Shown: one piece after another, positions 44,841-58,937 of the stretch
Position numbering within the stretch: the stretch's first letter is position 1
Layout: each line of letters opens with the position of its first letter
Position numbers and translations under genes: made by a program
NCBI GenBank assembly: GCA_945878725.1
Contig: CAMCTY010000001.1
Coordinates: 62,001 to 126,000, forward strand
From: Bifidobacterium breve
Lineage (GTDB): Bacteria; Actinomycetota; Acidimicrobiia; Acidimicrobiales; Acidimicrobilacustridaceae
Direction of reading: 5' to 3'
Length of the DNA stretch: 64,000 nucleotides
Notes under the pieces: model-generated
The model's input: the letters and a program-made list of their open reading frames with translations, nothing else
What the model was told of the DNA's origin: nothing
Databases searched by the model: none

Positions 44841-44888
44841 ATGAGCATCAAGGTTGTTCCCAACTCCACGCTCGTAGTACTCAACTAG
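44841..44888 (+). CDS. ilvBNC leader peptide
   Basis: A 15-codon frame, MSIKVVPNSTLVVLN then TAG, in which seven residues are Ile, Val or Leu. It starts 9 bases after a CAGACT -10 hexamer and ends 31 bases before a terminator hairpin. This is the classical layout of ribosome-mediated attenuation for ilvB operons in Actinobacteria: shortage of charged branched-chain tRNA would stall the ribosome and let transcription continue. Too short for most gene finders. Confidence 0.75.
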   Translation: MSIKVVPNSTLVVLN

Positions 44889-44914
44889 CACGCGCCGGCT
44901 CAGCCTGCGTGTGC
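44888..44914 (+). promoter_or_regulatory. leader hairpin between ilv leader peptide and terminator
   Basis: GCACGCG (44888-44894) pairs with CGTGTGC (44908-44914) with one G-T pair and a 13-base loop. It begins at the leader stop codon and could act as a pause hairpin. An antiterminator overlapping the terminator arm was not found by eye. Confidence 0.4.
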
Positions 44915-55502: not shown

Positions 55503-57059
55503 ATGGCTCGCATCCTTGTAACAGAAACCATCGCGGACGGCGGCCTTGACCGCCTCCGGGCTGCCGGACATACCGTCGATGTCCAGGAGGGCTTGAGTCC
55601 CGAAGAGTTGCTGTCGGCAATCGTTGGCGCTCACGCACTCATTATCCGGTCGGCGACCGACGTCACCGCTGAGGTTCTCGCCGCCGGAACCGACCTCGTG
55701 GTCGTTGGTCGGGCCGGTATCGGTCTTGACAACGTCGACACGGCTGCAGCCACCGAACGCGGTGTGATGGTCGTGAACGCGCCGCAGTCGAACATCCTCT
55801 CCGCCGCCGAACACACGATGGCGCTGCTACTTGCCCTCGCTCGCAATGTTCCGCAAGCCCACGCCGCTTTGGTATCGGGCCGGTGGGAACGCAGTCGTTG
55901 GACTGGAGTTGAGCTTGCCGACAAGACACTCGGTGTCGTCGGTCTTGGTCGCATCGGGAAACTCGTCGCGCAGCGGGCGATGGCCTTCGGCATGAACTTG
56001 ATCGCCTATGACCCCTTCGTCTCGCCCGAGATGGGTCGCAAGATGAACATCGAACTCGTCGATCTCGACACATTGTTGGCTACCGCCGACTTCGTAACGC
56101 TCCATGTCGCCAAGACGCCTGAAACTATTGGTCTCATCAATGCGACAACGTTGGCGAAGGCCAAGAAGGGCATCCGCATAATCAACGTGGCCCGAGGCGG
56201 AATCATTGTTGAGAGCGATCTTGCCGACGCGATTAAGTCTGGACATGTCGGAGGTGCCGCACTGGACGTCTTCGACAAAGAGCCCACGACGGAATCACCG
56301 CTATTCGGGCTTCCTGAAGTTGTCGTCACCCCGCATCTTGGTGCGAGCACTCACGAAGCTCAGGACAAGGCTGGCGACACGATCGCCGAGATGGTCGGAC
56401 TAGCCCTCGCCGGTGAGTTCGTGCCGTTTGCCGTCAACGTCAACGCGGCCGAAGCCAGTGAAACTGTCCGCCCGTTCCTTCCATTGGCCGAACGTCTCGG
56501 TTCGCTGTTCGCTGGCCTCTGCGGTTCGGTCGACTCTCTCGAAATCGCCTACGAAGGTGAGATTGGCGGATACGACACTCGCATCCTCACGCTGTCGTTG
56601 CTCAAGGGCTTCTTCGCACGCACGAGTGATGAGCCTGTCTCGTTCGTGAACGCACCGAAGTTCGCGGAAGCGCGGGGCATCACCGTGACCGAATCGAGTT
56701 CGACAACGGCACACCATTACGTCAATCTCGTGACGGTCCGAGGTAGCGGCCACAACATCGCCGGCACTCTCGTCGGCATGGAAGGCGAGGCCCGCTTGGT
56801 GATGGTGGACGATCACCGCGTGGATGTTCCGCCGGCGAACAACATGCTCGTTGTGCGCAACGATGATCGACCCGGAATGATCGGCATCGTCGGAACCATC
56901 GTCGGTGAAGCCGGAGTGAACATCGCGGATATGGATGTCGGCCAGGCTGCCAGTGGCGCCTCGGCGATGATGGTTCTCGCCACAGCCGCACCGGTACCGG
57001 CTGAGGTCTGCGAGAAATTGCGCGCCGTTGAAGGAATCGTCTCGGTCGACGCCCTCTGA
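55503..57059 (+). CDS. serA: D-3-phosphoglycerate dehydrogenase
   Basis: First step of serine synthesis. The 518-residue length is the long type with NAD-binding core (GVVGLGRIGKLVAQRA), catalytic region (NVARGGIIVE and PHLGASTHEAQDKAG), an allosteric substrate-binding domain (about 325-445) and a C-terminal ACT domain (RNDDRPGMIGIVGTIVGEAG). Serine feedback is expected. GGAAGAA precedes the ATG. Confidence 0.97.
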   Translation: MARILVTETIADGGLDRLRAAGHTVDVQEGLSPEELLSAIVGAHALIIRSATDVTAEVLAAGTDLVVVGRAGIGLDNVDTAAATERGVMVVNAPQSNILSAAEHTMALLLALARNVPQAHAALVSGRWERSRWTGVELADKTLGVVGLGRIGKLVAQRAMAFGMNLIAYDPFVSPEMGRKMNIELVDLDTLLATADFVTLHVAKTPETIGLINATTLAKAKKGIRIINVARGGIIVESDLADAIKSGHVGGAALDVFDKEPTTESPLFGLPEVVVTPHLGASTHEAQDKAGDTIAEMVGLALAGEFVPFAVNVNAAEASETVRPFLPLAERLGSLFAGLCGSVDSLEIAYEGEIGGYDTRILTLSLLKGFFARTSDEPVSFVNAPKFAEARGITVTESSSTTAHHYVNLVTVRGSGHNIAGTLVGMEGEARLVMVDDHRVDVPPANNMLVVRNDDRPGMIGIVGTIVGEAGVNIADMDVGQAASGASAMMVLATAAPVPAEVCEKLRAVEGIVSVDAL

Positions 57060-57102: not shown

Positions 57103-57131
57103 TTGCAATCGTGCCGAGTCTCCGGCAGACT
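57103..57131 (+). promoter_or_regulatory. promoter of the leuA leader
   Basis: TTGCAA (57103-57108), a 17-base spacer and CAGACT (57126-57131). The leader-peptide ATG follows 6 bases after the -10 box, so its mRNA probably starts at or next to the ATG. Confidence 0.6.
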
Positions 57132-57137
57132 CCAGTC

Positions 57138-57179
57138 ATGCGTTCCATTGATTTCATCTCGGAGCTACTCCTTCGATAA
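57138..57179 (+). CDS. leuA leader peptide
   Basis: A 13-codon frame, MRSIDFISELLLR then TAA. The three consecutive Leu codons are CTA, CTC and CTT. It begins 6 bases after a -10 hexamer and is followed by an antiterminator/terminator pair. This is a leucine-specific attenuation leader for the downstream 2-isopropylmalate synthase gene. Confidence 0.8.
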   Translation: MRSIDFISELLLR

Positions 57180-57210
57180 GGCGAGTGCCACCTTTGGTGC
57201 TCGTCAGCCT
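57179..57210 (+). promoter_or_regulatory. leuA antiterminator hairpin
   Basis: AGGC (57179-57182) pairs with GCCT (57207-57210), and GAG with CACC in the inner part pairs with GGTG and CTC. It shares bases 57208-57210 with the terminator's left arm, so the two structures exclude each other. A ribosome at the leader stop would cover its 5' arm; one stalled at the Leu codons would not. Confidence 0.5.
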
Positions 57211-57245
57211 CTCGTACCTTTGGGTTCGGGAGGTTTCTTCGTTTT
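57208..57245 (+). terminator. leuA attenuator terminator
   Basis: CCTCTCGTACC pairs with GGTTCGGGAGG in 10 of 11 positions (one G-T pair, one T-T mismatch) around TTTG, followed by TTTCTTCGTTTT. Confidence 0.75.
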
Positions 57246-57261
57246 GCGGCTCAGTCAACCC

Positions 57262-57322
57262 GATAGCAGTCAGTCCGATAGCAATCAGTTCAGCAGCAAT
57301 CAACCCAGCAGCAATCAACCAG
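57262..57322. repeat. short CAGCAATCAAC-type repeats before leuA
   Basis: Degenerate copies of AGCAGTCAG/AGCAATCAG and two close copies of CAGCAGCAATCAACC fill the region between the attenuator and the leuA ribosome site. Such A-rich, unstructured sequence may keep the start accessible. Confidence 0.6.
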
Positions 57323-57341
57323 AAGTGAAAGGCAGCCTTCC

Positions 57342-58937
57342 ATGGCCTCCACCCCCGAATCTGTAACTCCCAAGACCGACGCTGATCGCGTGATCATCTT
57401 CGACACGACGCTGCGCGACGGCGAGCAGTCGCCGGGTATCTCGCTCGACGAGGGGGAGAAGCTCGAGATCGCGGAGCAACTGGCGAGGCTCGGGGTTGAT
57501 GTGATCGAGGCCGGCTTCCCTATCGCCAGTCAGGGCGACTTTGAATCCGTGCAGGCCATTGCCCGTAGCGTTTCGGGTCCGATCATCTGCGGCCTGTCCC
57601 GCACGGCGTTGGGCGATATCGATCGTTGTTGGGAGGCCATCGAGCCGGCCGCTCGTCGGCGCATCCATGTCTTCATCGCGACGAGTGAGACACACATGGT
57701 CCACAAGCTGCGCATGACTCGCGATCAGGTGAAGGCCGAAGCAGCCTCGGGCGTGGCCCGGGCGCGTGAGTACACCGAGGACGTCGAGTTCTCGCCGGAG
57801 GACGCGTCGCGTTCCGACTTCGAATTCATGTGCGAGGTTCTGCAGATCGCCGTCGACAACGGAGCGACGACGTTGAACATTCCGGACACAGTTGGTTTTG
57901 CGGTGCCGGATGAATATGCACAACGGCTCGCCAACGTTCGCAAGGTAGTCAAAGGTGACTATGTCGTTTCGACGCACTGCCACAATGACCTCGGGCTGGC
58001 CGTGGCGAATTCGCTTGCGGCGGTGCAACTGGGCGCACGTCAGATCGAATGTGCGGTCAACGGTTTGGGTGAGCGGGCTGGTAACGCGGCACTTGAAGAG
58101 ATCGTCATGGCACTGCGCACGCGTGCCGATTTCTTCGGCGGTATCGACACCGGCATCAAGTCCGAAGAACTGGCGCGGACGAGTCGTTTGGTTAGTCGCC
58201 TGACCGGCTACCCGGTGCAGTACAACAAGGCTGTTGTCGGCCGTAACGCATTTGCCCACGAGTCAGGCATTCACCAGCACGGTGTGCTGAACGAGCGCAC
58301 TACCTACGAGATCATGGATCCGGCTGCGGTGGGTCAGGGCGAATCCAAGATTGTTCTGGGTAAGCACTCTGGCCGGCATGCGTTTGCCGACACGCTCAAG
58401 AAGATGGGATACGACCTGAGTGGCGACGCACTGAATCAGGTCTTCACCCGCTTCAAGGAACTGGCCGATCGCAAGGTGGAACTGAGCGATGCCGATCTTG
58501 AGGCGCTGGTCGCCGAAGAGGTTGGCGACACCGTTCGCTACGCGTTCTCGCTTGTCGCGATTGAATGCAGCGGTGGAACCAACTCCACGCCGACGGCCTC
58601 GATCGTGCTGGACCATGACGGCGAGAAGCTCGAAGCTTCGGCTGAAGGCGATGGCATGGTCGACGCTGCGTGTAAGGCGATCCGAATTGCAACAGGCATC
58701 GATGGCAACCTCACCGACTACGCGGTGACATCCGTAACCGGTGGCGTGGATGCGCTCGCAGATGTTGCTCTGCGTTTCGATGTCGATGGCGTATCGATGC
58801 CCGGTCGCGGGCTGTCGACCGATGTCGTCGAGGCCTCGGCTCGTGCCTTTCTCAACGCGATCAACCGGATCGTCAGGGTGCGCGATTCAGGGGAGAACCC
58901 GAACTCGGTGTCGCGACCTGGTTCAATCACTCCCTGA
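57342..58937 (+). CDS. leuA: 2-isopropylmalate synthase
   Basis: First committed step of leucine synthesis, condensing acetyl-CoA with 2-ketoisovalerate. The 531-residue protein has FDTTLRDGEQSPGISL at the start of the TIM barrel, THCHNDLGLAVANSLAA metal ligands, NGLGERAGNA and the HESGIHQHGVL and LGKHSGRHAF motifs. A C-terminal LeuA regulatory domain (about 395-515) binds leucine. Expression is controlled by the leader attenuator upstream. Confidence 0.95.
   Translation: MASTPESVTPKTDADRVIIFDTTLRDGEQSPGISLDEGEKLEIAEQLARLGVDVIEAGFPIASQGDFESVQAIARSVSGPIICGLSRTALGDIDRCWEAIEPAARRRIHVFIATSETHMVHKLRMTRDQVKAEAASGVARAREYTEDVEFSPEDASRSDFEFMCEVLQIAVDNGATTLNIPDTVGFAVPDEYAQRLANVRKVVKGDYVVSTHCHNDLGLAVANSLAAVQLGARQIECAVNGLGERAGNAALEEIVMALRTRADFFGGIDTGIKSEELARTSRLVSRLTGYPVQYNKAVVGRNAFAHESGIHQHGVLNERTTYEIMDPAAVGQGESKIVLGKHSGRHAFADTLKKMGYDLSGDALNQVFTRFKELADRKVELSDADLEALVAEEVGDTVRYAFSLVAIECSGGTNSTPTASIVLDHDGEKLEASAEGDGMVDAACKAIRIATGIDGNLTDYAVTSVTGGVDALADVALRFDVDGVSMPGRGLSTDVVEASARAFLNAINRIVRVRDSGENPNSVSRPGSITP

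Follow-up and report, generated by a model that had tools for sequence, protein, structure and literature searches.

The region upstream of leuA in the window, i.e., the whole 64,000-nucleotide stretch of DNA that was analysed, combines promoter-like hexamers, a short reading frame with successive leucine codons and two hairpins. This raises the question of whether these elements constitute a leucine attenuator and, if so, how a ribosome in the leader might decide the fate of the terminator. The earlier note on this DNA had described a complete switch of that kind, in which an antiterminator at 57179-57210 overlapped a terminator at 57208-57245 and the two hairpins were mutually exclusive. The parts of the leader, as we now define them, are as follows.

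57103-57108, + strand: -35-like hexamer TTGCAA; relatives have TTGCAA/TTGACG-like hexamers
57126-57131, + strand: -10-like hexamer CAGACT, with a 17-nt spacer from the -35 and 6 nt before the leader ATG
57138-57179, + strand: leader peptide ORF of 13 codons, MRSIDFISELLLR and stop, with its start codon at or next to the predicted transcript start
57165-57173, + strand: control codons CTA CTC CTT, the run of three Leu codons in the leader ORF (CTACTCCTT)
57180-57205, + strand: hairpin P1, 11 bp, directly after the stop codon (folding, covariation)
57206-57235, + strand: hairpin T, stem-loop of a predicted intrinsic terminator (folding, covariation)
57234-57245, + strand: U-rich tail TTTCTTCGTTTT after T
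57327-57332, + strand: leuA ribosome-binding site GAAAGG, outside P1 and T
57342-58937, + strand: leuA, 2-isopropylmalate synthase (NF002086, 731 bits; TIGR00973, 684 bits)

The leuA leader and its conservation in Acidimicrobiia

The promoter, the 13-codon leader with its three successive Leu codons (the peptide ends Leu-Leu-Leu-Arg-stop) and the terminator lie where the earlier note had placed them; the hairpins are arranged differently. The segment folds at -43.5 kcal/mol, compared with -32.6 kcal/mol for dinucleotide shuffles (z -2.9; 2 of 200 shuffles were as good), and P1 and T are formed together in the minimum-energy fold, where they have no base in common, P1 ending at 57205 and T beginning at 57206. 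They are therefore not alternatives, and an overlapping pair of hairpins is ruled out by folding. A generic promoter and terminator scan flagged neither element of the leuA leader on the + strand, because the -10 hexamer does not begin with the consensus T and other bases break up the tail (UCUUCGUUUU); nor was the leader matched by any of the 4227 covariance models of Rfam, at gathering level or at E values up to 1. Tandem imperfect repeats of ~15 nt (AGCAATCAACCC-like, 57258-57321) are located in the window between T and the leuA ribosome-binding site, a GAAAGG that is also seen before leuA in relatives; in the same genome, leuS is preceded by a short repeat of similar kind (TGATTCTGCGCTGTC; L263).

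LeuA relatives from genomes and named contigs gave 89 distinct upstream regions, nearly all of them from MAGs labelled Acidimicrobiia, Acidimicrobiales or Candidatus Microthrix, and in 87 the Leu run, usually one further codon, the stop codon, P1 and T follow each other in this order. Nearly all of the 87 leaders have three or four Leu codons, then one codon, then the stop; the gap from stop to P1 is 0 nt in 80 of them and that from P1 to T is 0-3 nt in 83, while in 75 the 8 nt that follow T include at least five U. A covariance model of 16 members found a single match in the window's own genome (E 1e-11); among 198 genomes of the class it matched 107, and it gave a few matches in other classes of the phylum. 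It is this conservation that places the element beyond chance. In an alignment of 67 members fitted to the model, the P1 and T pairs are retained in 96.8% of cells and 17 of 20 pairs show double changes (0 of 500 shuffles scored as high). Because that alignment was fitted to the model, the swapping of arms between species is the more independent check, and it gives z values of -9.1 for P1 and -11.5 for T.

Several minor features of these loci were noted. CTT makes up 35% of the codons in the Leu runs, compared with 8% of the Leu codons in leuA genes, and 54 of the 87 leaders end their Leu run with it. Some genomes encode both a short (TIGR00973) and a long (TIGR00970) LeuA, and each of the two genes has an attenuator of the layout described above: L162/L018 (G027), L163/L164 (G302) and L165/L166 (G292). 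Past the U-tract of L005, L009, L010 and other loci of the same genus is a conserved CUCCGGCC that can pair with the 3' arm of the terminator (GGCCGGGAG), a pairing that beats the terminator in the full-length fold of L009 and L010. Three MAG records titled 'Bifidobacterium breve' (L040, L041 and L046) have an Acidimicrobiia-type LeuA 81-90% identical to that of the window, and these titles look wrong.

The end of serA at 57059, ~150 nt upstream, might suggest that T is only the 3' terminator of that gene and that the Leu-rich ORF is incidental. However, the fetched locus contains no serA in 27 of the 87 loci with the element, and T is therefore not a serA terminator; the promoter, leader, P1 and T are also kept as a unit across LeuA types, one family having retained the leader before a LeuA of the unrelated, long type (TIGR00970). 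Locus context rules out this reading, which we consider scarcely credible. From its conserved leader, pathway-tracking codon run, covarying hairpins and U-tailed terminator, a real and conserved ribosome-mediated attenuator very probably precedes leuA, as the earlier note had proposed. Searches of the open-access literature gave no account of a terminator-bearing leuA attenuator from Acidimicrobiia. The element would be a class-wide leucine attenuator that uses an intrinsic terminator and has apparently not been described before, in a class whose gene control has been little studied.

Leader start and control codons

Of 85 distinct leaders, 62 have a -10 hexamer of the type [TC]AnnnT at a distance of 6-8 nt upstream of the start codon, compared with a frequency of 1.4% per position in dinucleotide shuffles, and an SD-like core precedes the leader start in only 2 of 87. 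By sequence, the leaders have the arrangement of leaderless genes, i.e., a -10 element 6-9 nt before the start and no Shine-Dalgarno box, which fits a transcript that starts at or within a few nucleotides of the leader start codon; leaderless initiation of the leader peptide is well supported in this sense. While the -10 spacing agrees with the leaderless start that the earlier note had suggested, it is not the unusual twist described there, being normal for actinobacterial leader peptides (PMC8079986, PMC11857589). The leader peptides leuL1, leuL2, ilvL and trpL of S. lividans have been mapped as leaderless (PMC8079986), the ilvB leader of C. diphtheriae is also leaderless (PMC5784534), and in C. 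glutamicum the ilvBNC leader start is one nucleotide from the transcript start (PMC11857589).

The same layout is found before ilvB in the window, the gene being identified by TIGR00118.

44841-44888, + strand: ilvB attenuator leader ORF, MSIKVVPNSTLVVLN and stop
44889-44913, + strand: ilvB attenuator hairpin P1, directly after the stop codon
44920-44942, + strand: ilvB attenuator terminator hairpin CGACCTCCC-AATGC-GGGAGGTCG, then TTTGCGTT

Here the run is LVVL, with Val codons GTA GTA as in most relatives, and most ilvB genes of relatives carry an attenuator of the same layout. Covariance-model matches and direct inspection identified ilvB leaders with the runs LVLIL, VVVLV and similar; leuS follows an LLL leader of the same layout at three loci (L159, L171 and L180), and citramalate synthase (TIGR00977, 639 bits) an IIII leader. 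Among close relatives the layout was not found before trpE, leuS or citramalate synthase, the one exception being L259, which belongs to another family and has FIIIP-stop before citramalate synthase. Ile-run leaders before citramalate synthase, an isoleucine-pathway relative of LeuA, read MAPINTIIIID-stop and MPQQTSTNVPFIIIP-stop in other families (L176 and L259); the other relatives examined had no such leader ahead of this gene. Short leader ORFs with a codon run for the product of the operon consequently occur before leuA, leuS, ilvB and cimA, and a predicted intrinsic terminator, with covariation and a U-rich tail, stands between the leader ORF and the first gene. That the identity of the codons matches the pathway gene is the strongest evidence for the codon run being the sensor.

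The relationship between P1 and T

Attenuators of the E. coli trp/leu type resemble the leuA leader in that ribosome stalling on pathway-product codons controls an intrinsic terminator; in these, the stalled ribosome masks segment 1 and 2:3 forms. Transposed to the window, P1 would be 1:2, GGUGC (57196-57200) and GUACC (57214-57218) would pair as the 2:3 antiterminator, T would be 3:4, and a stalled ribosome would break P1 and so allow 2:3. This helix can be made to form in the window sequence, where masking 7-12 nt of the P1 5' arm ties up the T 5' arm (P 0.64-0.81), and 87.5% of cells are able to pair in this way, more than in slid controls. However, native duplexes between the P1 3' arm and the T 5' arm are no better than those of arms swapped between species (z +0.7), and GGUGC:GUACC shows no double changes and a covariation equal to that of shuffles. 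A ribosome on the Leu codons, moreover, masks only 0-5 nt of P1, which stays folded (P of the T 5' arm being paired 0.03-0.13), and it is the ribosome at the stop codon that would trigger 2:3, the opposite of the logic needed. Folding of the partial transcript leaves the T 5' arm available in the first of these states and partly occupied by GGUGC:GUACC in the second, an order opposite to that of a classical 2:3 switch, and we consider such a switch unlikely. Unlike the E. coli type, the Leu-stalled ribosome of the window would leave P1 intact, and the 2:3 helix does not coevolve. No antiterminator helix that overlaps and excludes the terminator was found in the leuA leader; P1 and T lie side by side and can coexist, and their cross-pairings do not coevolve, so that the mutually exclusive hairpins of the earlier note have to be abandoned.

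The Leu run might also pair with a purine-rich strand, in the window GGGAGG of the T 3' arm, in the manner of the LEU element of other actinobacteria, where the run pairs with the leuA Shine-Dalgarno box. At -11.4 kcal/mol this is indeed the strongest cross-duplex, but it is equal after arm swaps between species (z -0.3) and equal to that of random synonymous Leu codons (z 0.07); furthermore, the Leu run is covered by the ribosome when stalled, and the leuA ribosome-binding site takes no part. The synonymous recoding test rules out the run as a decoy for the T 3' arm, and LEU-like control of this kind appears highly improbable.

We propose instead that P1 acts as an antiterminator by proximity, without competing base pairs. 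Transcription would start at or beside the leader ATG, and a ribosome would load on the transcript end and translate the 13-codon peptide. When charged tRNA-Leu is present the ribosome would reach the stop codon and cover the 5' arm of P1, P1 would melt, and T would form before leuA; when leucine is short, it would stall on the Leu codons directly upstream of P1, which would stay folded, and T would fail. In the conserved geometry, a hairpin that starts at the stop codon would be left free by a Leu-stalled ribosome and melted by one at the stop. Taking the ribosome edge as ~12 nt beyond the A site, a value derived from established footprints (a footprint of 26 nt centred on the codon is used in PMC13236596), a stall at any of the Leu codons from the first to the third should leave P1 intact or nearly so, whereas a ribosome at the stop should cover its 5' arm.

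How would an intact P1 then prevent termination? By looping out the RNA between the ribosome and T, it would leave a stalled ribosome ~20-26 nt from RNA polymerase upon closure of T, i.e., at or below the contact distance. It is the spacing that is tightly conserved. When both hairpins are folded, the RNA between the P site and polymerase in the window measures 26, 23 and 20 nt for stalls at the first, second and third Leu codon (the middle value was derived by a one-codon shift from the others), and the class medians are 28 nt for the first Leu and 21 nt for the last. With P1 open, this path lengthens to 40 nt if the ribosome is at the stop and to 52 nt if it stalls at the first Leu. These lengths assume E. 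coli expressome distances and a polymerase ~8 nt past T, and a stall at the first Leu (26-28 nt) is borderline. The reported contact distance between ribosome and polymerase is 25-26 nt, and modelling of collided complexes at 26-34 nt indicates that the polymerase is unable to respond to terminator hairpins (PMC10953045); ribosomes trailing close behind polymerase likewise block terminator hairpins, as in pyrBI (PMC5021804). We prefer the steric explanation because the path lengths are near the contact distance and close ribosomes block terminators (PMC10953045, PMC5021804).

It also predicts that the spacing should be kept where sequences change. In most of the ilvB leaders found in other actinobacterial families, 4-5 nt separate the run from P1 and 0-1 nt separate P1 from T, with the stop codon sometimes inside P1; the spacing of run, P1 and T is retained widely while sequences, amino acids and stop positions vary, which fits this prediction. 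Counting against it is the alternative GGUGC:GUACC pairing, which is weak but able to form in most members. On balance, that the leuA element is a leucine-responsive ribosome-mediated attenuator in which P1 blocks T by proximity has, in our judgement, an even chance of being correct, the leucine response and termination at T both being predicted from the arrangement. The steric step taken by itself, in which a stalled ribosome and a folded P1 together block T, is plausible, if short of an even chance. More tentative is the generalisation that attenuation may operate with no alternative antiterminator helix, a non-overlapping hairpin simply shortening the RNA between ribosome and terminator, and that one spacing rule may cover the leuA, ilvB, leuS and citramalate synthase leaders across Actinomycetota. 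In Acidimicrobiia leaders and the related actinobacterial ilvB leaders, the supposed antiterminator and terminator are neighbours and not alternatives, and the spacing rule is specific and testable.

Alternatively, P1 might be mainly a pause hairpin that synchronises ribosome and polymerase, with leucine stalling acting via pausing or an unrecognised pairing. Many members have the hairpin 10-12 nt upstream of a pyrimidine-G step (e.g., ..CCUGYG.. after P1), as judged by eye in alignments, and pause hairpins belong to the model for C. glutamicum ilvBNC (PMC11857589). Yet the corresponding step in the window is U-A and not YG, and pausing alone accounts neither for how a leucine stall would stop T nor for the 0-3 nt spacing of P1 and T, so we regard this as rather improbable.

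Comparison with known attenuators

The LEU element (PMC1262725) precedes the same gene and likewise has a leaderless leader with a Leu run and an RNA structure downstream of it. It has a pseudoknot, a pairing between the Leu run and the leuA Shine-Dalgarno box, and no terminator, and the same is true of S. lividans leuL1 (PMC8079986). In the window, by contrast, a terminator is present and conserved, pairing of the Leu run is at chance level and the leuA ribosome-binding site is free; neither a pseudoknot nor a base stem of Leu run and Shine-Dalgarno box was found there, the structure being two simple hairpins. LEU-like elements without a terminator do occur before leuA in other actinobacterial families (L112-L121), which makes the Acidimicrobiia leuA leader a different element. 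Mutation of the leucine codons before leuA in Streptomyces coelicolor gave results unlike classical attenuation (PMC1262725), a point against a leucine attenuator that is tempered by that leader having no terminator.

Closer analogues are C. glutamicum ilvB (PMC11857589) and M. tuberculosis ilvB1 (PMC13236596), in which control codons lie just upstream of a hairpin directly preceding an intrinsic terminator. In each case the proposal is that a ribosome stalled on these codons allows the first hairpin to form (PMC11857589, PMC13236596); in M. tuberculosis that hairpin is masked once the ribosome is at the stop, and an LVVI-to-AAAA change abolished induction (PMC13236596). The two states we envisage for the window have the geometry put forward for M. 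tuberculosis ilvB1, opposite to that of E. coli trp. However, the hairpins of these two leaders are called overlapping (by 3 nt) or mutually exclusive, while those before leuA share no base; the window leader also differs in having Leu-only control codons, in its gene, leuA, and in a P1 that starts at the stop codon. The Streptomyces leuS leader leuL2 shares a leaderless LLL leader, a hairpin and a U-stretch, but serves a different gene, and its antiterminator and terminator are described as alternatives (PMC8079986; PMC1262725). Finally, E. coli pyrBI is a case in which a ribosome that follows polymerase closely keeps the terminator hairpin from forming (PMC5021804), as we propose by analogy for the window; pyrBI senses UTP via pausing, whereas in the window the position of the ribosome would be set by the codon run and its distance shortened by a hairpin.
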